IMG/VR virus record: IMGVR_UViG_3300025141_000234
Span: 1-41,433 of that record
DNA length: 41,433 bases
Reading direction: 5' to 3' (one strand)
DNA from: a virus
The translations under genes and the position numbers were made by a program. The notes beneath the pieces were generated by a model. It was not told the DNA's origin and did no database searches. It saw only the letters and a program-made list of their open reading frames with translations. Positions 9,802 through 39,724 of the stretch are shown here, piece by piece; positions within the stretch are counted from its first letter, which is position 1; each line of letters begins with the position of its first letter.

Positions 9802-10020
9802 ATGCCTATGCTCGATTTAGCTGATATTGAAGTGCTGAAAAGTTTTATGACCCACAATATCCATCAACCCTTCAACCCCAAATACTTGATCCGGTTTCGG
9901 CGGGTGTTACCGGTTTTATTACAAGATTACGAGAAACTGTGCTACGAAAATGATGCTTTGTTAAAAACTAACCGGCTATTGGAAAAGGAACTGGTCAAAG
10001 GGCAAGAGGCGGCAGAATGA
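9802..10020 (+). CDS. Small protein between capsid and glycosyltransferase genes
   Basis: A 72-residue protein of unknown family. I start it at 9802 (MPMLDLADIEVLKSF) because AGGA at 9787-9790 precedes that ATG, whereas the longer frame starting at 9736 would run into the capsid gene. The C-terminal half is a helix with heptad-like leucines (LLKTNRLLEKELVKGQ). Its stop overlaps the start of the large glycosyltransferase gene as ATGA, so the two are probably co-translated and this protein could be a partner of the enzyme. No catalytic motif is visible. Confidence 0.7.
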   Translation: MPMLDLADIEVLKSFMTHNIHQPFNPKYLIRFRRVLPVLLQDYEKLCYENDALLKTNRLLEKELVKGQEAAE

Positions 10021-12998
10021 AATATAATATCGCCTTCTATTGCCAATCAGTACCCTTTTCGGCAGAGACTATCAAGCTGGAGAAATCTTTAGGTGGTAGT
10101 GAAACAGCTTTGGTTTATATGGCCAATGCTTTGGCCCAACGAGGCCATCAGGTCACGGTCTTCACTCAATTTCAAAACGAAGATCATCAAGGGCGGTATA
10201 ACGGGGTCAAATGGGCTGATAGCCAGTATTTCCCTGATATGTGCCACAGTATCGAATGGGATATATTTATCTCCCAACGCTACTATCCAGTGATGGCTAA
10301 TAATGTCCGGGCCAAGTATCGTGGTTTATGGGTTGAGGATGTGTTGGAAGCTGGTATCAAGGCTGAATATGCCGGCAGTTTATGGCAAACAGATCAGATC
10401 CTTTATGTCAGTGATTGGCAACGGAAAAATTACGAATCTATCTTACCTAGTGGCATAGAGAAGCTAGCCTTTGTTACTAAGAACGGCATTGATTTGGATA
10501 CGGTCGATGACAGTTTGGTGGCTGAAAAAGATCCCAACCAGATGATCTATATTAGCCGGCCAGAACGAGGGTTGTTCCCACTGTTACAAATCTTTCCTCA
10601 GATGCGGGAGTTACGGCCTGACCTGAAATTAAAGGTTTGTCGCTACTATTCAATGTACGAGAACAACCCGGACGTGAAGCGGATTTGTGAGCAAGCGGAT
10701 CGTATGGTAGCTCATACCGAAGGGGTGGAATATTTGGGTAATTTGAACAAAGCCCAATTATATAAACATATCTCCAGATCAGCTTTAATGTTGTATCCGG
10801 GTGTACCGACTTTCGATGAAACCTCTTGCATCGCCGCTTTGGAAGCTCAAGCCTGTCGAACCCCAATGGTAGCCACCAACCGTGGAGGATTAGTCGAGAC
10901 TTTATGGCCGTTTGCTGGTGCTTTGATCGACGGTGATGCTTATAGTGACGGTTACCAGCGCGAATTTATCGCCCAAGCCTTCGATCTGTTGGACGATTCT
11001 GCCCGTTACCGTGAAGCCCAAAAAACGGGTCGTGAGTGGGTAGTTGACAATTATCAATATCACACTATTGCTGAGGAATGGGAACAGAATTTCGATCAGT
11101 TCTTTAAAACTCGATTTGAAACCTATACCCCTCAAATATTTGACAACCTGTTACATCACGACGATTTTGTTACCGCTTACCATATGCAAGAGGAAGACGG
11201 TATTAGCCAAGAGCAACGTGACCGCTTGGATTCCCAACTCAACCAAACCCATACTGAACAGCAATACGAAGATGGGACAGAAGATCCAGCTGTTGAATTC
11301 TCCTTTTTTGAAACTGGCTATCATGGCCGATTAGAAACGGTCTTGCAATTGATCGACCCCAAAAAAAGCCAAATGGAGCCAGCTAACATCATGGATTATG
11401 GCTGTGGCGGAGGTGTCTTTGCCAGTGCCTTGCAACGAATGTTCCCTTCGGCCCAAGTTTTGGGTATAGATTTCAGTCAAGGTGTTGTGGACAAGGGCAA
11501 CCAATTCATAGCCGACCAGAAATGGGAGCAACGGAAACCGCATCTGCACCAAGCTGATTTGATGGATGCATCCAGCTTGCAAGAGATCAAGGTTGAGGGT
11601 GATGTCCGGTTCTCTTTAGAGGGCCAGAAATATGATTTGATCTTTTGTGGCGAATTATTGGAACACTATGCTGAACCAATGGAACTGGTTTTGACCTTGG
11701 AAGACTTGCTAACCGATGATGGTTGGCTGGTGTGGACAGTCCCCAACGGCCCATTCGTAGAGATGGCCACCAATGACAGGGAGCGGAACCAACGGACGCA
11801 CCGAATCCATTGGGAATACAACACGGTGGAAGAAGTCTTTAGCCAGAAGGACGGGTATCAGGCCCGTTATATCTGCATCAATAATTCCACCGGATGTCGG
11901 GGCTTGGAAAAGGGCCATTATGTCTTCCGCCACCAAAAGGGCGGTCAATACGGCGAGATAGATTTCGACAAGAAAGCCAAGCTGACTCGACCTTACCAAA
12001 AGATTAGTGTTTGCATGATTGCCCAGAACAACGAACAGGATATAGGCCGTTGTTTGGATTCGGTCAAAGGGGTAGCTGACGAGATTATTTTGGCCCACAA
12101 TCAATCAACCGACAAGACGGTGGAGATCGCCAAACAGTATGGGGCTAAGATCATCGAATTGCCAGAAAAATGGCCAGCCGCTCCGGATTGGGCACCTAAT
12201 CCGGGCAACTTTTCGTGGATGCGGAACGAGTCGGTTGATCCGGCCAACGGTGATTGGATTCTGTGGATTGATACTGACGAAGAATTGCGTAACGGTGATC
12301 TGTTGGGCAAGTATCTACAGACCCGACTTTATGACGGATATGTCTTGCGTCAGGTTCATTTGATGGTTGACGCTGACCAAAGGCATGATACCCCGGTTAG
12401 GCTGTACCGTAACGGGGCCGGGTTCAAGTTTTATGGTTGCATCCATGAACATGCCCATCGGAGTCTAAACGAACCGATAGAACCGTCATTTGAGTTGCCA
12501 TCGACCGACATCATCCATTATGGCTATGTGACGGAAGATGTGCGCCAAATCAAGTGTAAAGAACGGAATATCGGACTGTTAAAACTGGATCGAGCTGTGC
12601 ATCCTGATAGGTTGTTAGGTTGGGTCTTGTTAGCACGGGAATATATTAATATGGTGGGCTGGGAACGGCAAGAAACCCCGGACCAACCTTTAAGCCAGAC
12701 TTCCGAACGACGGTTGCGGGAAGTGTTACGCATTTTCCACGATGAAGATCTTAATTTGGCTGATCCAGAGGGCCGTTATTACAAACTGATATTCCCTATT
12801 TATCAGGTGGCTTTGAAACTGTTACAAGTAGGGTTCGGGGCCAAAATAGATGTTCAGATAACGGATAACGGTCAAGATATGCGCTTCTTGGATCAGGACG
12901 ATTTGGAGAAGCATTTACAGTTCCAAATTAAGGACTTGGAGAAACAAGTCTTCACCTTGACCAGAGATAAAACCTATTTAACTCAAGTGGAGGGCTAA
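10017..12998 (+). CDS. Trifunctional GT4 glycosyltransferase - SAM methyltransferase - GT2 glycosyltransferase fusion
   Basis: A 993-residue protein with three enzyme modules. Residues 1-380 are a GT-B glycosyltransferase of the GT4 kind: LGGSETALVYMANAL near 25, and an EX7E pair at E268/E276 in PTFDETSCIAALEAQ that would hold the nucleotide-sugar donor. Residues about 430-640 are a class I SAM-dependent methyltransferase, with motif I MDYGCGGG at 459 and later FCGELLEHY and VWTVPNGPF. Residues about 660-900 are a GT-A/GT2 glycosyltransferase (SVCMIAQNNEQDIGRCLDS, ADEIILAHNQSTDKT) with a DXD-like metal site at D752/D754. No membrane segment is visible, so it should be cytosolic. It lies in the head operon between capsid and connector genes, which suggests it builds and methylates a glycan on a virion protein or another phage-specific acceptor; the acceptor is not evident. 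Domain calls are strong, the substrate is unknown. Confidence 0.93.
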   Translation: MKYNIAFYCQSVPFSAETIKLEKSLGGSETALVYMANALAQRGHQVTVFTQFQNEDHQGRYNGVKWADSQYFPDMCHSIEWDIFISQRYYPVMANNVRAKYRGLWVEDVLEAGIKAEYAGSLWQTDQILYVSDWQRKNYESILPSGIEKLAFVTKNGIDLDTVDDSLVAEKDPNQMIYISRPERGLFPLLQIFPQMRELRPDLKLKVCRYYSMYENNPDVKRICEQADRMVAHTEGVEYLGNLNKAQLYKHISRSALMLYPGVPTFDETSCIAALEAQACRTPMVATNRGGLVETLWPFAGALIDGDAYSDGYQREFIAQAFDLLDDSARYREAQKTGREWVVDNYQYHTIAEEWEQNFDQFFKTRFETYTPQIFDNLLHHDDFVTAYHMQEEDGISQEQRDRLDSQLNQTHTEQQYEDGTEDPAVEFSFFETGYHGRLETVLQLIDPKKSQMEPANIMDYGCGGGVFASALQRMFPSAQVLGIDFSQGVVDKGNQFIADQKWEQRKPHLHQADLMDASSLQEIKVEGDVRFSLEGQKYDLIFCGELLEHYAEPMELVLTLEDLLTDDGWLVWTVPNGPFVEMATNDRERNQRTHRIHWEYNTVEEVFSQKDGYQARYICINNSTGCRGLEKGHYVFRHQKGGQYGEIDFDKKAKLTRPYQKISVCMIAQNNEQDIGRCLDSVKGVADEIILAHNQSTDKTVEIAKQYGAKIIELPEKWPAAPDWAPNPGNFSWMRNESVDPANGDWILWIDTDEELRNGDLLGKYLQTRLYDGYVLRQVHLMVDADQRHDTPVRLYRNGAGFKFYGCIHEHAHRSLNEPIEPSFELPSTDIIHYGYVTEDVRQIKCKERNIGLLKLDRAVHPDRLLGWVLLAREYINMVGWERQETPDQPLSQTSERRLREVLRIFHDEDLNLADPEGRYYKLIFPIYQVALKLLQVGFGAKIDVQITDNGQDMRFLDQDDLEKHLQFQIKDLEKQVFTLTRDKTYLTQVEG

Positions 12999-28703: not shown

Positions 28704-29123
28704 ATGATAGGCTTCACTTGCGGATCGTTCGACCTGTTACATGCCGGCCATATTCTAATGCTAACTGAATGTAAGGATTATTGCGACTATTTGATCGTGG
28801 GCTTGCAGGTAGATCCCTCGGTTGATCGGTCAGAAAAGAATAAGCCGGTCCAATCGTTGTTCGAACGCCAGATCCAGTTAGAGAGTGTGCGGCATGTGGA
28901 TCGGGTAGTAGTTTATGAAACCGAGGCCGATTTGGAACAAGTATTGTTGTCCTTCTGTCCTGACCGGCGGTTCGTTTCAGAGGAGTATCGAAACAAGGAT
29001 TTTACCGGATCTGAGATCTCTGGCATCGAGGTTATTTATAATAACCGCCGTCACCATTTCAGTTCTAGTAGATTACGGGAGAGATGCCAAGACGGGTCAG
29101 GCTGGATAATGGATCGTGAATGA
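28704..29123 (+). CDS. TagD-like cytidylyltransferase
   Basis: A 139-residue nucleotidyltransferase of the HxGH superfamily. CGSFDLLHAGHI puts the catalytic HxGH at H13-H16, followed by LIVGLQVDPS and a Rossmann-type pattern. It has the length of a glycerol-3-phosphate cytidylyltransferase (about 130 residues), which makes CDP-glycerol from CTP. The usual R-T-x-G-I-S-T-T end appears here as HHFSSSRLRER, a divergence near the nucleotide pocket, so substrate may differ. Pairing with the glycosyltransferase fusion at 10017 suggests the phage makes or redirects an activated polyol or sugar. Other members of the superfamily, such as FAD synthetase-like or ADP-heptose-type enzymes, remain possible. 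Confidence 0.88.
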   Translation: MIGFTCGSFDLLHAGHILMLTECKDYCDYLIVGLQVDPSVDRSEKNKPVQSLFERQIQLESVRHVDRVVVYETEADLEQVLLSFCPDRRFVSEEYRNKDFTGSEISGIEVIYNNRRHHFSSSRLRERCQDGSGWIMDRE

Positions 29124-30347: not shown

Positions 30348-30702
30348 CCATAAGGACGAATATGCTGGCAAAAGTGACCACGAAGTAATCCTGATCCTAG
30401 AGTCCCAAGTCCAAAACTTGCTGGCCAATTTGGACAAGACCGAGAAACAGAATGAACGGCTAACCAAGACCCAAGGCCAGATCTCGGTAGTAAGGATGGT
30501 TTTCATGGGCGTGATCCTGTTGATTGGCAGTATGGTAGCTATGAGTATTGTTAGCTGGTGGTCACCCAAGGGTACCATCGGGATCGAGAAGGAGTTAGCT
30601 TTTTTTGAGAGGTTGTTGCTGGTGTTGTTGGGGATATTAGGATCAGCGACGGTGGCACTCTACGACCAACGGGCCGGTAATGGGAATGGAGATAGCAAAT
30701 GA
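30334..30702 (+). CDS. Membrane protein with coiled coil and two membrane helices
   Basis: A 122-residue protein. Residues about 18-48 form a coiled coil (LILESQVQNLLANLDKTEKQ), followed by membrane helix VFMGVILLIGSMVAMSIV (about 56-73) and a second, LLLVLLGILGSATVALY (about 93-109), and a short polar tail. The stop overlaps the start of the histidine kinase gene as ATGA, so this protein and the kinase are likely co-translated and might form a membrane complex, supplying the sensing part the kinase lacks. That partnership is inference from gene order. Confidence 0.62.
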   Translation: MVSADHKDEYAGKSDHEVILILESQVQNLLANLDKTEKQNERLTKTQGQISVVRMVFMGVILLIGSMVAMSIVSWWSPKGTIGIEKELAFFERLLLVLLGILGSATVALYDQRAGNGNGDSK

Positions 30703-32057
30703 TTTTTGGTGAGATCTCAGTCGAGGGTGCGTTGGGGTTAGGGGTGGTTTGGGGGGTTGGAGTAGTCTCCGTCATGACGGCCATCGTCAACAAAGCCAAG
30801 GAGGAGGTCAAGGGGTATTTGCACACGACCTTGAAAGAGCATCGGGATGTAGCGGCTGAAATGGTAGGGTCTGGTGTCGAGAGTCAGCTATGTGGGGTAC
30901 AACAAGATTTGAAAGTGGCGTTAGCGGATCTGGTCACGGCGGAAGCGGCCACTGAGGCCAAAACGGAGTTCTTGTCACGGATGAGCCATGAGATCCGTAC
31001 CCCGTTGAATGGGATTATCGGTTCGTTGGGCTTGGTGGATAAAGAAGGGTTGAGCCTCCAACAGGCCGAAGATATTGAACGAGCGGTAACCGCCTCCAAC
31101 CGATTACTGGCGGTGGTTGACCAGATCTTGGAGTTTTCCAAGGTGGAGTCCGAAACCGTCGACTACCAAAAAGAGGCTTTCGCCTTAAATGAGGTCTGTC
31201 AAGAATTAGTGCAAGAAATGGACGTACTGGCAAACGAGAAGGGGCTTGACCTTTCCTTGGAGTTAATTGGTGATGGCCCGGACTGTCGAGTAGGAGACCG
31301 GCAAAAGATATTTCAAGTCCTGACCAACTTGGTTGGCAATGCTATCAAATTCACCAATAAAGGATCTGTCCGGTTGGAAGTTAATCAGGCTGATGATGAT
31401 TGGGTCGAGTTCAAAGTGGTTGACACAGGGATCGGAATCCCAGCTTCAGAATTGGGAGTTATTTTTGGTTCGTTCACTCAAGCCAGCAATAGAACATCCA
31501 ATCAGACCTCCAGCACTGGTTTGGGGTTGAGTATTTGCCACCGCTTCGTGTCGGGCATGGACGGGAAAATGGCGGTCTACTCCGAATTAGGGGTCGGCTC
31601 CACCTTTAGCTTTCGCCTCCCTTTGCCGTTGTGTCATGTGGGCGATCTTGGGGCCAAGCCTAATCCAAGCCTTGGATTAGTTGGGCATGGCCAATCCGCT
31701 TTAATAGTCGATGACGAACCAACCAACCGTATTATCGCCACCCGGTATCTGGAGAATTTAGGGCTGGAGGTGGTGGCGGTGGCGAGTGGGACCGAAGCGG
31801 TAGCGGAATGTGGGAAGACGAAATACGATTATGTTTTTATGGATTTGCAAATGCCGGTCATGGACGGGTTTGAAGCCTGCAAACTGATCAAGGAAGGCGG
31901 AAACGGGGAGGAGATAATCGCCCTGACAGCCAGTGTGGTTGGTGATATTGAGGACAGGTGTCTGGCGGCGGGGATGGATGGATACCTGAGCAAGCCTTTT
32001 ACCGCCGATCAATTGCGGTCTATCGTCTCAACAAGGCATATTAGAGAGAAGGAATAA
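30699..32057 (+). CDS. Hybrid sensor histidine kinase with receiver domain
   Basis: A 452-residue two-component protein with every catalytic box intact. A membrane helix lies at about 9-30, followed by a coiled linker. The HisKA domain carries FLSRMSHEIRTPLNGI with phospho-acceptor H97. The HATPase domain has N-box QVLTNLVGNAIKFT (N210, N214), G1 DTGIGIP at D242 and G2 TGLGLSI near 273. A receiver domain at about 333-445 has acidic pair D338/D339, phospho-acceptor D382 in MDLQMPVMDG, T410 and K432. There is no periplasmic, PAS or other sensor domain, so input must come through the membrane helix, the coiled coil or a partner such as the membrane protein just upstream. Such kinases are standard in bacteria and very rare in phages. 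Terminator at 32147 follows. Confidence 0.96.
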   Translation: MIFGEISVEGALGLGVVWGVGVVSVMTAIVNKAKEEVKGYLHTTLKEHRDVAAEMVGSGVESQLCGVQQDLKVALADLVTAEAATEAKTEFLSRMSHEIRTPLNGIIGSLGLVDKEGLSLQQAEDIERAVTASNRLLAVVDQILEFSKVESETVDYQKEAFALNEVCQELVQEMDVLANEKGLDLSLELIGDGPDCRVGDRQKIFQVLTNLVGNAIKFTNKGSVRLEVNQADDDWVEFKVVDTGIGIPASELGVIFGSFTQASNRTSNQTSSTGLGLSICHRFVSGMDGKMAVYSELGVGSTFSFRLPLPLCHVGDLGAKPNPSLGLVGHGQSALIVDDEPTNRIIATRYLENLGLEVVAVASGTEAVAECGKTKYDYVFMDLQMPVMDGFEACKLIKEGGNGEEIIALTASVVGDIEDRCLAAGMDGYLSKPFTADQLRSIVSTRHIREKE

Positions 32058-32356: not shown

Positions 32357-32400
32357 TCTGTGATCTTGAAACAGGCATGAATAGCAGGGTGGGGTGGGTT

Positions 32401-32523
32401 ATCAAATAAAATGTGGTATTATGGCATTTTAGCTTGCATTATCACATCCTAGGTGGTATAATACAACCATAACGATGAGAAATGGAGACAAACAAGATGA
32501 ACAACTTAACCAACCAACCAACC
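32401..32523 (+). repeat. Promoter-leader-start module, copy 1
   Basis: Aligns with 35932-36057: the same ATCAAATAAAATG at the left end, ATTTTAGCTTG before the promoter, TTATCACAT in the spacer, CATAAC in the leader, GGAGACA ribosome binding site, and identical first codons. A whole regulatory and translation-start cassette has been duplicated. Confidence 0.75.
32434..32462 (+). promoter_or_regulatory. Sigma70-type promoter of the accessory operon, with operator-like dyad
   Basis: TTGCAT (32434-32439), a 17-base spacer and TATAAT (32457-32462). The -35 and -10 flanks form an imperfect dyad, GCATTATCACA/TGGTATAATAC, matching 8 of 11 positions, related to the perfect dyad at 40429-40457. Drives the small genes from 32497 on. 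Confidence 0.8.
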
Positions 32524-32739
32524 ACAACTCAACCAGTCATAACCGTAACTGTTGCAAACCCAACGGGACATCAAACCACCGTTATGGAGATTACGGACAT
32601 CAATTGGCTCTATGCCATCGACTTTACGGAGGGGCATTCCAAAACGGTACAAACGGATGATTTCAGCTCTCTTATTTACGTCCGACACGAAAGCCTTGAA
32701 GCCGCTAACGAATTTGCACAAGCTAATAACAGTCGATAA
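32497..32739 (+). CDS. Accessory protein with MNNLTNQP N-terminus (1 of 3)
   Basis: An 80-residue protein of unknown function: a Thr/Pro/Asn-rich start (MNNLTNQPTTTQPVITVTV) and a mixed alpha/beta remainder (INWLYAIDFTEGHSKTV, SLEAANEFAQANN). I use the ATG at 32497; the earlier ATG at 32482 would swallow the GGAGA ribosome binding site. First gene after promoter 32434. The first eight residues are identical in the proteins from 36034 and 36334, although the rest is unrelated. Confidence 0.72.
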   Translation: MNNLTNQPTTTQPVITVTVANPTGHQTTVMEITDINWLYAIDFTEGHSKTVQTDDFSSLIYVRHESLEAANEFAQANNSR

Positions 32740-33261: not shown

Positions 33262-33633
33262 ATGGAATTGAAAAGCCAACTGAGCGAGATTAGCGAACAA
33301 ACCAGAGGCAAATTCGGCCAGACCATTGAAGATTGCATCGAGGAGATCCAACGCAATCGGGATCGGACTTGGCACAGTATAGCCATAAGGTTGTCTAACA
33401 GTGATGTGGATGTCACTGATGACATCATTGGCCATTTGATAGAGGAGGCCATTTTGGAAGGAGCCAGCCACGTCCTGAAATATCATGCCAGATTCCTGAT
33501 GGAGGGATTGGGCAACGAAATTAATCGGGTTGGTCACTATGACGGGCTTGACAAAGACCGTAATGGTGAAGATTACAAATCGCCAGAATTGACCAAAGCA
33601 TTTGAAGAACTCAAGAATAAGGAGACAGAATAA
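33262..33633 (+). CDS. Accessory protein, paralogue of the gene at 37551
   Basis: A 123-residue helical protein of unknown function. It shares with the protein from 37551 the start (MELKSQLSEISEQT against MELRSKLSKMSQQT), the NRDRTWHSIA/NRDRAWHMIA block, the DVTDDIIG/DITDDVIG-x-x-IEEAIL block and the end (KSPELTKAFEELK against KSPALKSALEELK). The last codons (AAG GAG ACA GAA TAA) serve as the ribosome binding site of the next gene, which starts in a TAATG overlap. Confidence 0.72.
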   Translation: MELKSQLSEISEQTRGKFGQTIEDCIEEIQRNRDRTWHSIAIRLSNSDVDVTDDIIGHLIEEAILEGASHVLKYHARFLMEGLGNEINRVGHYDGLDKDRNGEDYKSPELTKAFEELKNKETE

Positions 33634-35916: not shown

Positions 35917-35931
35917 AAAAGCCGCAAATTT

Positions 35932-36057
35932 ATCAAATAAAATGCCATAATATCACATTTTAGCTTGTATTATCACATGCCAGATGTTATTATATAGTCA
36001 TAACAAAGAACAAGGAACAAGGGAGACAGACAGATGAACAACTTAACCAACCAACCC
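35932..36057 (+). repeat. Promoter-leader-start module, copy 2
   Basis: Second copy of the module at 32401-32523. The left part, promoter core, CATAAC leader, GGAGACA site and first eight codons are conserved, while the middle of the operator and the leader differ in length. The inner box is GCCATAATATCACA here and GGTATTATGGC in copy 1, the same half-site in opposite orientation. Confidence 0.75.
35965..35993 (+). promoter_or_regulatory. Second accessory promoter with the same core
   Basis: TTGTAT (35965-35970), a 17-base spacer, and TATTAT (35988-35993), within AGCTTGTATTATCACA. The overlapping dyad is weaker than at 40429. Drives the genes from 36034. Confidence 0.75.
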
Positions 36058-36279: not shown

Positions 36280-36333
36280 GAGATAGACAAATAAGGAGAA
36301 GGGAACAACAAAGAACAGGGGATACAGACAGAG

Positions 36334-36588
36334 ATGAACAACTTAACCAACCAGCCAACCAGACCTAACCCATACACCGGATCAACTGAGAACAGGATTG
36401 AAATGGCCATTTACCAGATAGCAGAATCCCGACTGATGAAGATTTTTGGGATCTCAAGAGACGAGCTATATGAAATGAAGGACGGGCAGTATATATACGG
36501 TGACGAATTTGATGCCACTTCGAACGACGTGAGAACAGCTCTCAACGATCTTCAGTGGACACTTTACAGTGATCAGGAGGCAAGATAA
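36334..36588 (+). CDS. Accessory protein with MNNLTNQP N-terminus (3 of 3)
   Basis: An 84-residue protein starting MNNLTNQPTRPNPYTG, followed by a helical part (RIEMAIYQIAESRLMKIFG, ISRDELYEMKDGQYIYG). It repeats the leader and first codons of the genes at 32497 and 36034 but has no separate promoter that I can see; GGGGATACAGACAGAG precedes the ATG. Unknown function. Confidence 0.68.
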   Translation: MNNLTNQPTRPNPYTGSTENRIEMAIYQIAESRLMKIFGISRDELYEMKDGQYIYGDEFDATSNDVRTALNDLQWTLYSDQEAR

Positions 36589-37421: not shown

Positions 37422-37454
37422 ATGGAATATAAAATATGGGGACATTACAAGTAG
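37422..37454 (+). CDS. Ten-codon leader-type open frame abutting the ribozyme
   Basis: Encodes MEYKIWGHYK. The AATAAGGAGAAGGGATA in front is as good a ribosome binding site as those of the real genes. The TAG stop (37452-37454) ends on the base before the first paired base of the hammerhead. A ribosome terminating there would cover the ribozyme's stem I and part of its core. It may be a regulatory leader peptide or a gene remnant. Confidence 0.5.
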   Translation: MEYKIWGHYK

Positions 37455-37508
37455 CCCACCTGATGAGGCCGGCCGGTAATTGGCCGAAACGCCTGACGGC
37501 GTTGTGGG
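37455..37508 (+). ncRNA. Hammerhead ribozyme, type I
   Basis: All conserved parts are present in order: stem I 5' strand CCCAC (37455-37459), core CTGATGA (37460-37466), stem II GGCC/GGCC (37467-37470 with 37482-37485, 11-base loop), GAA with A15.1 (37486-37489), stem III ACGCC/GGCGT (37489-37493 with 37498-37502, loop TGAC), cleavage-site U17 at 37503, and stem I 3' strand GTGGG (37504-37508). Every stem pair is Watson-Crick. Stem I is the open one, hence type I. Predicted cleavage lies between 37503 and 37504. U at position 17 is allowed but usually slower than C. It sits in the gap between two accessory cassettes. Confidence 0.9.
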
Positions 37509-37515
37509 AAACCAC
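37504..37515 (+). other. GNRA-capped hairpin at the predicted 5' end of the cleaved mRNA
   Basis: GTGG-GAAA-CCAC shares its left arm with ribozyme stem I, so it can form fully only after cleavage or when the ribozyme is unfolded. It would leave a structured 5' end and oppose re-ligation. Confidence 0.65.
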
Positions 37516-37550
37516 AATATAGATTTCAACTACAGGGAGAAGACAGAGAA

Positions 37551-37916
37551 ATGGAATTGAGAAGCAAACTGAGTAAGATGAGTCAACAGACCCAGACCAA
37601 ATTCGCTTGGGCCGTTGAAGGTTGTACTAATACAATCGAGAGCAACCGAGACCGGGCGTGGCATATGATAGCCACTGAGATAGCCACCGGGTGTGATATT
37701 ACTGATGATGTTATCGGTGATATTATAGAAGAAGCCATCTTGAATGTGATCCAAGAATCCTTCAGCCATCAAGCCAAAGTCCTAATGGTAGGGATGGGTA
37801 AGGAGATCTGTCGGACAATGCACATGAGCCAAAGGGAAAGAGACGCTACTGGTGAGAGCCTAAAATCGCCAGCATTAAAATCGGCGCTGGAAGAACTCAA
37901 GAAGGAGAAGGGATAA
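37551..37916 (+). CDS. Accessory protein, paralogue of the gene at 33262
   Basis: A 121-residue helical protein of unknown function, sharing start, NRDRAWHMIA block, DITDDVIG-x-x-IEEAIL block and the KSPALKSALEELK end with the protein from 33262. It is the first gene downstream of the hammerhead, so its mRNA would start with the GTGG-GAAA-CCAC hairpin after cleavage, with about 47 leader bases. Ribosome binding region CAGGGAGAAGACAGAGAA. Its last codons (AAG GAG AAG GGA TAA) provide the site for the next gene. Confidence 0.72.
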   Translation: MELRSKLSKMSQQTQTKFAWAVEGCTNTIESNRDRAWHMIATEIATGCDITDDVIGDIIEEAILNVIQESFSHQAKVLMVGMGKEICRTMHMSQRERDATGESLKSPALKSALEELKKEKG

Positions 37917-38230
37917 TGTCAGATTTAACCTATACCCAAACCAAAGGACTAATCTCGCAACTAGGTCGGGATGAAGTCGATTCACTGGTCAAACAGCACG
38001 GCATCGAGATGCTGGTAGCCGCTTGTGAATTGGGCATCCAAGCCGACAGTATTGAGGACAGTTATCAAGGCTTCTGGCAGAGTGACAAGGATTTTGTCAT
38101 GGACTTGCTTTATGACCTTTACGACCTGGAGCAGTTGCTCCCCCACTTTATTGCTATTGATTGGGAGATAACAGCAAGGGCGGTAATGACGGACTATTCG
38201 GAAGATAACGGCCACTATTGGAGAATATGA
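37916..38230 (+). CDS. ArdA-like antirestriction protein, C-terminal domain only
   Basis: A 104-residue protein whose second half matches the ArdA pattern: SIEDSYQGFWQSDKDFVMDL corresponds to the family's F-x-E-A-Y-x-G-x-W-x-S-x-x-E-F, followed by LLPHFIAIDWEITARAVMTD and a closing DNGHYWRI, where ArdA has GHVFR. ArdA mimics B-form DNA and blocks type I restriction enzymes; full-length proteins are about 165 residues with three domains, so this one is short. The strongly acidic character needed for DNA mimicry is retained. Start coupled to the previous gene (TAATG). Confidence 0.8.
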   Translation: MSDLTYTQTKGLISQLGRDEVDSLVKQHGIEMLVAACELGIQADSIEDSYQGFWQSDKDFVMDLLYDLYDLEQLLPHFIAIDWEITARAVMTDYSEDNGHYWRI

Positions 38231-38788: not shown

Positions 38789-39724
38789 ATGAATCAACGA
38801 AAAGATACTGGCAAGTTCGCCAACTACCAAAATGTAGCCAGCCGGGTGGACGGCATCCACCAAGTTAATGAAGACCGAGTCAGCATTAAAACTGACAAGC
38901 CAACTTTCTCCGAGCATCCGATCTATGGCCAAATTGTTGAATGTTCGGCTACGGTCACAATTTACCCGAAAGACCTTGATCTACCCGATCAACTGGAATA
39001 TGATGGGCATGCCAAAAAGGTGTTAGCTAAACCGGACGGCAAAGGGGGCTGGAGGCCGGAACAAAACATTGACAACCTTTACGAAATAGTCGAAACCAAA
39101 GCCATCGGACGGGCATTAGCCGCCGCTGGATACTTAACTCGCAAGGATGATGGCGGGAAGATGGACTATGCTACGGAGGAGGACATCAACGAATCCAAGC
39201 GGCAAGAAACCGACACGGCCATGCGAAAGGAATTGGAAACAACCAAGAGGAGGTTGCGGGAGGTAGAGGCTGACCACAACCTCCTAAACGGCTTGGACGA
39301 CCCAAGAGGCCAAACTAATAAGGAGACCGAAGATAAGGCCCGAATGGAACTTGAACGGAGGGGAACACTGGCCGAGAACTTGGATCGAAAACTTGAACAA
39401 GCCAAGGCCATTGAAGCCGAAGTCAAGAAGGTGGCTGATACAATCGTAGCACCTGAAGATGCGACCCTAACCCCTCAATTATGGAAAACTTGGCTGGATG
39501 CGGCCAAGATCCCAGAGGACACATTTCAGGCTATCGACGGTTCTCAGCAGAAAGCCAGTGTTCTAAAATTGGCTCAGATCTTTCAGACCTATCAATCGAA
39601 ACCAGTCATGAAGCCGGAGGTGTTGAAGGCGCAATTGGAGAGTCAATATAAGGTGACGAATCCCCGGTTATTGAGCGATGAACAAGCTGACCAATTGATC
39701 GCTGAAATCAAGGGGGTGCAATAA
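38789..39724 (+). CDS. Putative DNA-metabolism protein with long coiled coil
   Basis: A 311-residue protein. The N-terminal part has a small beta region (YGQIVECSATVTIYPKDLDL) and the motif IVETKAIGRALAAAGYL near 100-116; E-T-x-AIGRAL-x-x-AGY is recurrent in phage and plasmid proteins found near single-strand annealing genes, and I treat this as a hint only. Residues about 135-220 are a charged coiled coil (KELETTKRRLREVEADHNLL). The C-terminal part (LTPQLWKTWLDAAKIPEDTF, LLSDEQADQLIAEIKG) is helical. It follows the SWIM gene closely (ribosome binding region AAGGGGGATAC), suggesting a joint role in recombination or replication. Confidence 0.65.
   Translation: MNQRKDTGKFANYQNVASRVDGIHQVNEDRVSIKTDKPTFSEHPIYGQIVECSATVTIYPKDLDLPDQLEYDGHAKKVLAKPDGKGGWRPEQNIDNLYEIVETKAIGRALAAAGYLTRKDDGGKMDYATEEDINESKRQETDTAMRKELETTKRRLREVEADHNLLNGLDDPRGQTNKETEDKARMELERRGTLAENLDRKLEQAKAIEAEVKKVADTIVAPEDATLTPQLWKTWLDAAKIPEDTFQAIDGSQQKASVLKLAQIFQTYQSKPVMKPEVLKAQLESQYKVTNPRLLSDEQADQLIAEIKGVQ

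Follow-up and report, generated by a model that had tools for sequence, protein, structure and literature searches.

What does a short RNA motif at a gene junction of an uncultured phage do, and is it the self-cleaving ribozyme that it appears to be? Since many hammerheads came to light in 2011, their biological role in bacteria and phages has been an open question. The case considered here lies in a 41,433-nucleotide stretch of viral DNA (IMG/VR record IMGVR_UViG_3300025141_000234, positions 1 to 41,433), called the window below.

Architecture and detection of the ribozyme

Positions 37455-37508 on the + strand read CCCAC-CUGAUGA-GGCCGG(CCGGUAA)UUGGCC-GAA-ACGCC(UGAC)GGCGU-U^GUGGG, 54 bases in which all of the hammerhead core bases, the A15.1-U16.1 pair and H17 are in place. 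Stems I, II and III have 5, 6 and 5 bp, respectively, with two G-U pairs in stem II. Stem I is open while stems II and III are closed by loops, which makes the hammerhead type I (Table 1). A complete hammerhead had been described here in the first-pass annotation, and its coordinates, core bases and three paired stems are all upheld by the sequence and by a strict parser. The hammerhead rule places the cut directly 3' of H17, in agreement with the 37503/37504 site predicted in that annotation. The functional element extends 3' of 37508, to about 37515-37525.

Table 1. Positions of the ribozyme, its parts and the neighbouring features in the window.
Feature	Positions	Strand	Evidence
Possible 10-codon ORF MEYKIWGHYK, TAG abutting the ribozyme	37422-37454	+	sequence; stop-abutting layout is the family rule
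Type I hammerhead ribozyme (whole)	37455-37508	+	strict parser; R1 67.8 bits; Rfam Hammerhead_1 16.6 bits
Stem I 5' strand CCCAC, partner 37504-37508	37455-37459	+	sequence; pairing retained in G001 and G002, A-U to G-U
Catalytic core CUGAUGA	37460-37466	+	sequence; same in G002, one base inserted in G001
Stem II GGCCGG/UUGGCC, loop CCGGUAA	37467-37485	+	parser and three-phage pairing
Loop II GGU, proposed pseudoknot with ACC 37511-37513	37475-37477	+	family covariation
Core GAA (G12 A13 A14)	37486-37488	+	sequence
Stem III ACGCC(UGAC)GGCGU, A15.1-U16.1 at base	37489-37502	+	sequence; C-G/G-C compensatory change among three relatives
Predicted cleavage, U17 (37503) / G (37504)	37503-37504	+	hammerhead rule
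Predicted product hairpin GUGG-GAAA-CCAC, exact 5' end of 3' product	37504-37515	+	sequence, fold switch, conservation in G001/G002, general enrichment
Shine-Dalgarno-like AGGGAG for downstream gene	37534-37539	+	sequence
Downstream gene, 121 aa, no assigned function; start 47 nt past cut; paralog of 33262-33633	37551-37916	+	
Next gene, 104 aa, like C-terminal part of ArdA-type antirestriction proteins	37916-38230	+	PHROG 14321 E 2.2e-8

The parser demands the core CUGANGA, GAA, A15.1-U16.1, an H17 other than G and three helices. It finds this single site on either strand of the window and no match in 20 Mb of random sequence drawn from a first-order Markov model of matched composition, even with stems of 3/3/3 bp; a looser pattern matches the window once, with 0.03 matches expected. 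The Rfam model Hammerhead_1 (RF00163) aligns with the locus from end to end at 16.6 bits versus a gathering score of 34, and a search of the window at the gathering threshold returns no match. The same threshold returns no hammerhead match in ten loci holding about 30 strict phage hammerheads. Because the cut-off rejects every phage hammerhead tried, the low score does not refute the ribozyme. It is a limit of that model, not a defining feature, and Rfam hammerhead thresholds miss phage hammerheads.

A phage-specific covariance model, R1, was trained on 26 phage hammerheads, none of them from the window or from its two near relatives, G001 (IMGVR_UViG_3300012950_000003) and G002 (IMGVR_UViG_3300008219_000054), both of which have large parts of the window's structural genes in common with it. 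R1 has one match in the window, at 37455-37517 (67.8 bits, E 7.8e-18), and scores 77.0 bits in G002 and 62.8 bits in G001. The covariance search suggested in the first-pass annotation is thus formally below the Rfam threshold but strongly positive with the phage-specific model. Neither the parser nor R1 finds further copies elsewhere in the window or at the paralogous gene at 33262. Judged by its sequence, the segment is confirmed as a genuine hammerhead ribozyme, which would be expected to cleave itself and to leave a 2',3'-cyclic phosphate and a 5'-OH.

Pattern scans of IMG/VR followed by parsing gave 286 strict phage hammerheads, 279 of them non-redundant. A generic pattern found 119 loci in bacterial genomes but only 3 strict hammerheads, compared with 192 in 234 viral loci; the motif is therefore mainly viral. 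The window fits a sub-family having stem I CCCRC/GUGGG, a loop II with GGY and the flank GUGG-GNAA-CCAC. An extra base opening stem II is usual in the sub-family, though not universal: it is present in G001, G002 and most members and absent from the window. When 26 members are aligned, 97.7% of the cells are paired, as against 80.3% after shuffling and at most 47% after sliding by 1-3 columns. Double changes occur in 13 of the 20 pairs, including all three pairs of the pseudoknot described below.

Up to 5-6 copies may occur per phage at successive gene junctions (L033, L228, G011, G012), and two contigs of about ten kb, L376 (G011) and L384 (G012), carry five sub-family hammerheads each. The window has one copy only; several per operon are common but not obligatory among the phage hammerheads of Perreault 2011. 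A second large class has an AT-rich stem I of the GGTTAA/TTAACC type (for example L017, L020, L021 and L034) and mostly lacks product hairpins. It is situated near start codons without clear Shine-Dalgarno sites and might belong to a different host group.

Proposed loop II pseudoknot and product hairpin

In the window, GGU of loop II is proposed to pair with ACC of the 3' flank before cleavage, forming a pseudoknot. The proposal is based on covariation of the two triplets among family members, in which GGU:ACC occurs 47 times, GGC:GCC 13 times and GGA:UCC three times. When all classes are taken together, loop II and the flank are complementary in 108 of 212 hammerheads versus 48 expected. The complementarity is confined to the first bases after stem I, with no excess 6-18 nt further on. 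Pseudoknots between stems I and II are known in hammerheads and accelerate them (PMC3088659).

Directly 3' of the cut, GUGG is followed by GAAA and CCAC, and the sequence and its computed fold predict a 4-bp hairpin with a GNRA loop. The corresponding hairpins are GUGG-GAAA-CCAC in G002 and GUGG-GCAA-CCAC in G001. As the hairpin would be formed with the stem I strand of the ribozyme itself, the two structures exclude each other; the hairpin also shares bases with the pseudoknot and cannot coexist with it. The first-pass annotation, correct in its description of the ribozyme, missed both of these features.

Product hairpins were counted under Watson-Crick, GC-weighted rules with permutation and one-per-locus controls. 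These rules replaced a looser test (4 bp, G-U allowed) that was uninformative, giving 41 of 108 versus 27% in random positions. Among hammerheads collected with patterns blind to stem I and the flank, 23 of 191 have the hairpin, where 3.3 are expected. When each locus contributes one ribozyme and identical flanks are merged, the count is 16.8 versus 2.0 expected, and the largest value in 1,200 permutations is 7. An excess of product hairpins across phage hammerheads is thus well supported. For the exact sequence of the window, the proposed hairpin draws on conservation between the relatives and on this general pattern.

The most serious alternative is that the element is an ordinary hammerhead that does nothing except cut mRNA, the complementarity within GUGG-GAAA-CCAC being a by-product of the ACC required by the pseudoknot and of a fixed stem I. 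The pseudoknot does already demand ACC, and within the GGY class the flank CCAA is common whatever the sequence of stem I. Covariation of the hairpin arm with stem I is not significant in the GGY-loop sub-family as sampled by the loci of one pattern scan (p 0.18), because CCAA is the default flank there, and the GTGG/CCAC association taken alone is not significant in the wider GGY-class set (p 0.14). Against this stands the roughly 8-fold excess itself, which spans 13 different arm sequences in hammerheads chosen without regard to stem I or the flank. The excess holds within GC-rich stem I alone (14.4 versus 3.8), and in the wider GGY-class set a GCGG stem I is accompanied by a CCGC flank in six of seven cases (p 1e-6). 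Furthermore, hairpins occur in geometries that have no ACC pseudoknot, such as GCGG-ATAT-CCGC, TGCGG-ATGA-CCGCA and GTAGG-ATA-CCTAC. The by-product explanation is, on this evidence, doubtful. UUGG/CCAA was not accepted as hairpin covariation in the GGY class, CCAA being the default flank. Hammerheads with an AT-rich stem I largely lack hairpins, and processing in general therefore does not require them.

The order of events was considered by folding a transcript growing from 37420. Stem I is predicted at 0.98 when the 3' end has reached 37512, and the hairpin at 0.99 once CCAC is complete (37516 onwards). The folding model contains no energies for the pseudoknot or for core contacts, so the true switch from stem I to the hairpin should come later, ideally after cleavage.

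Operon layout and the proposed mechanism

The ribozyme of the window sits at a junction between genes and has their orientation. Such a position is the rule. In 257 of the 267 hammerheads with enough flanking sequence, the upstream ORF stops between -120 and +20 of the ribozyme, at a median of 0 nt. A nearby upstream ORF end combined with a start codon at most 80 nt after the cut is found in 225 of the 267 (84%) versus 24% at random positions. The start codon is at a median distance of 27 nt from the cut, or 37 nt where a hairpin intervenes; in the reverse direction only 23 of 186 fall within 60 nt. The layout across the 267 phage hammerheads is stop codon, ribozyme, leader and start codon, which supports cutting of polycistronic mRNA.

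Processing of a polycistronic message had been suggested in the first-pass annotation, and the position of the ribozyme fits that suggestion. The paralogous gene cassettes between which the ribozyme was said to lie are incidental to it: the proteins at 33262 and 37551 are indeed paralogs (47% identity), but the ribozyme is upstream of only one of them and is situated elsewhere in G001 and G002. The gap had also been called non-coding; the ribozyme is intergenic, although the gap holds the possible small ORF listed in Table 1. For the product of 37916-38230, the Pfam ArdA model gave 0.065, below its cut-off.

The computed properties of the element, namely the motif, its phage family, the covariation of stems II and III and of the pseudoknot, the stop-ribozyme-start layout and the hairpin excess, are what would be expected of a cis-acting mRNA-processing module that cuts itself and then refolds into a 5'-terminal hairpin. 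We consider this reading likely. During transcription of the operon, the ribozyme would fold immediately 3' of the stop codon that ends the upstream ORF, with stems I-III forming and GGU of loop II pairing with ACC of the 3' flank. Self-cutting at 37503/37504 would separate the upstream message from one opening with the 121-aa gene. The freed GUGG would pair at once with the downstream CCAC around the GAAA tetraloop, so that a 5'-OH hairpin stands at the head of the new message. The upstream product would thereby be released, religation prevented and the new 5' end protected against 5'-end-dependent RNases, and the Shine-Dalgarno site would stay free, 18 nt beyond the hairpin.

Whether the same description can be extended to a widespread class of phage hammerheads appears evenly balanced. 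The class would then be a two-state RNA machine, in which the 3' strand of stem I serves first the ribozyme and then, once its second partner has been transcribed and the cut made, a 5'-terminal hairpin that frees the upstream RNA and caps the downstream mRNA, and in which the flank pairs with loop II before the cut and with the cut strand after it. Such natural RiboJ-like parts would divide an operon transcript into separately stabilised monocistronic messages.

Related phages, likely activity and known systems

The ribozyme and hairpin occur as one block of 71-74 bp in G001 and G002, about 80% identical over 37455-37525. The shared block runs from the very first base of stem I to about 10 nt past the hairpin. 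Its junction differs from that in the window: in the relatives it lies behind an unrelated ORF of about 100 aa without counterpart in the window and precedes the region of a 278-aa gene, the homologue of window 34453. Because two related phages hold the element at another gene junction, it behaves like a portable module. The searches that led to relatives used the 311-aa protein at 38789 and an element-specific DNA pattern. The downstream 121-aa protein has none in IMG/VR or among GenBank phages, and neither the locus nor the family consensus matches GenBank phages at the DNA level.

Every structural pair is a standard pair in all three phages. Stem III shows one C-G/G-C double change, and stems I and II show G-U/A-U or G-U/G-C replacements, although three sequences are too few for covariation significance by themselves. 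As to the loss of core bases in related phages, named in the first-pass annotation as a possible refutation, G002 retains the full core and G001 has one base inserted after A6 (A6a). Perreault et al. report low activity for variants of this type (PMC3088659). In the G001 homologue (L124 2727-2800, G001:C1:20855-20928) the UGA of the core doubles as the stop codon of the upstream ORF.

The copy in the window may itself be slow. Its H17 is U, a base that phage hammerheads have there in 2 of 203 and 0 of 40 cases, and a stem II bulge has been lost. For an out-of-register stem II, CGGCCG/UGGCCG (37470-37475 paired to 37481-37486), the predicted gain in stability is 2.7 kcal/mol, and this pairing would tie up G12. 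The predicted probability of the active register is about 0.002 in the window versus 0.77-1.0 in short constructs of family members, with the model that omits the pseudoknot and core contacts. Given the rare U17 and a stem II favouring the inactive register, the RNA of the window is expected to be slower than those of its relatives. The same features, together with the A6a insertion of G001, could indicate a decaying relic, inactive or nearly so, of a family that functions elsewhere. However, the copy in the window retains the invariant core, all three stems, the triplets of the pseudoknot and the hairpin despite only about 80% identity to the relatives, and U17 still obeys the H rule; decay is accordingly judged unlikely.

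The presence of the block at different junctions, and the direct repeat formed by the stem I 5' strand and the hairpin arm, would also suit the footprint of a mobile element, with CCCAC and CCAC as target-site duplications around an inserted retrozyme-like cassette and no functional hairpin. This is highly improbable: in the sub-family the repeat tracks stem I and not the insertion site, a start codon accompanies the element a few tens of nucleotides later, and no terminal repeats, integrase or reverse transcriptase were seen among the annotated neighbours. The idea that core-like bases came together by chance in a short stretch of coding or repetitive DNA, for which the sub-threshold Rfam score and a 26-codon ORF overlapping the ribozyme from TTG 37480 might be cited, is refuted in practice by the empty 20 Mb of random sequence, the held-out model (E 8e-18) and the finding that phages share the block at different loci.

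Several known systems are close to the element of the window. A 2011 paper described hammerheads in phage and prophage operons, noted that they cluster and put forward the idea of transcript processing (PMC3088659); in similar prophage arrays cleavage was demonstrated in vitro and in E. coli (Perreault 2011, PMC3088659). The type I prophage hammerheads of that study are like that of the window in their core, three stems, stem I-II pseudoknot and proposed processing of long transcripts. They form clusters flanking single genes, and the sub-family of the window differs from them in its short stem I, CCCRC/GUGGG, and in the extra stem II base of most members. In Legionella and in an Agrobacterium prophage array, ardA is directly downstream of the hammerheads (PMC3088659); the window likewise has an ArdA-like gene, two genes downstream. 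A text search of PMC3088659 found no mention of a hairpin in the product that is built from the stem I strand, and neither the systematic stop-ribozyme-start layout nor the product hairpin is mentioned in the searchable literature; priority is not certain, because subscription journals were outside that search.

Another parallel is the man-made RiboJ, in which the sTRSV ribozyme with an appended 23-nt hairpin is placed just upstream of the ribosome-binding site and cleavage puts a hairpin at the 5' end of the message. RiboJ raises mRNA and protein, for which mRNA stabilisation or exposure of the ribosome-binding site has been suggested (PMC6206723). The hairpin of the window, by comparison, would reuse its own stem I strand. 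The glmS ribozyme also cleaves itself in an mRNA leader and leaves a 5'-OH message, but it is unrelated and metabolite-controlled, and its message is exposed to and degraded by RNase J1. The opposite, a capped 5' end, is expected for the window, and mRNA can be stabilised by stem-loops at its 5' end (PMC3997798 and references therein). In haloviruses HF1/HF2 an HHphage variant, which differs in its variant core and in belonging to viruses of archaea, lies 13 nt upstream of the start codon of an early gene, and a mapped transcript 5' end is at most 3 nt from the cut (PMC3088659). Retrozymes and viroid-like circular RNAs have the catalytic motif in common with the window (PMC7761336), but the single copy of the window has neither a tandem same-strand pair around one unit nor a replication-related context.

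The strict stop-ribozyme-hairpin-start layout and the hairpin formed from the cut strand suggest a concrete role for these ribozymes, that of cutting polycistronic phage mRNA and protecting the new 5' end, and they would supply natural, portable insulator parts of the RiboJ kind.

Some other features of the phage genome were observed. A hybrid histidine kinase with a response-regulator receiver (HisKA, HATPase_c, Response_reg) is encoded at 30699-32057, and in its relative in G001 (L124 10518-11996) the kinase and receiver parts are separated by a long repeat of alternating Q and A. A 993-aa fusion of a group 1 glycosyltransferase, a methyltransferase and a family 2 glycosyltransferase is situated within the head and tail block (10017-12998), and a cytidylyltransferase-like gene directly follows the tail genes (28704-29123). 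Leader stretches at 32399-32535, 35930-36056 and 36304-36372 are 79-87% identical to each other, and the proteins encoded there contain or start with MNNLTNQP, resembling a reused gene-start cassette.
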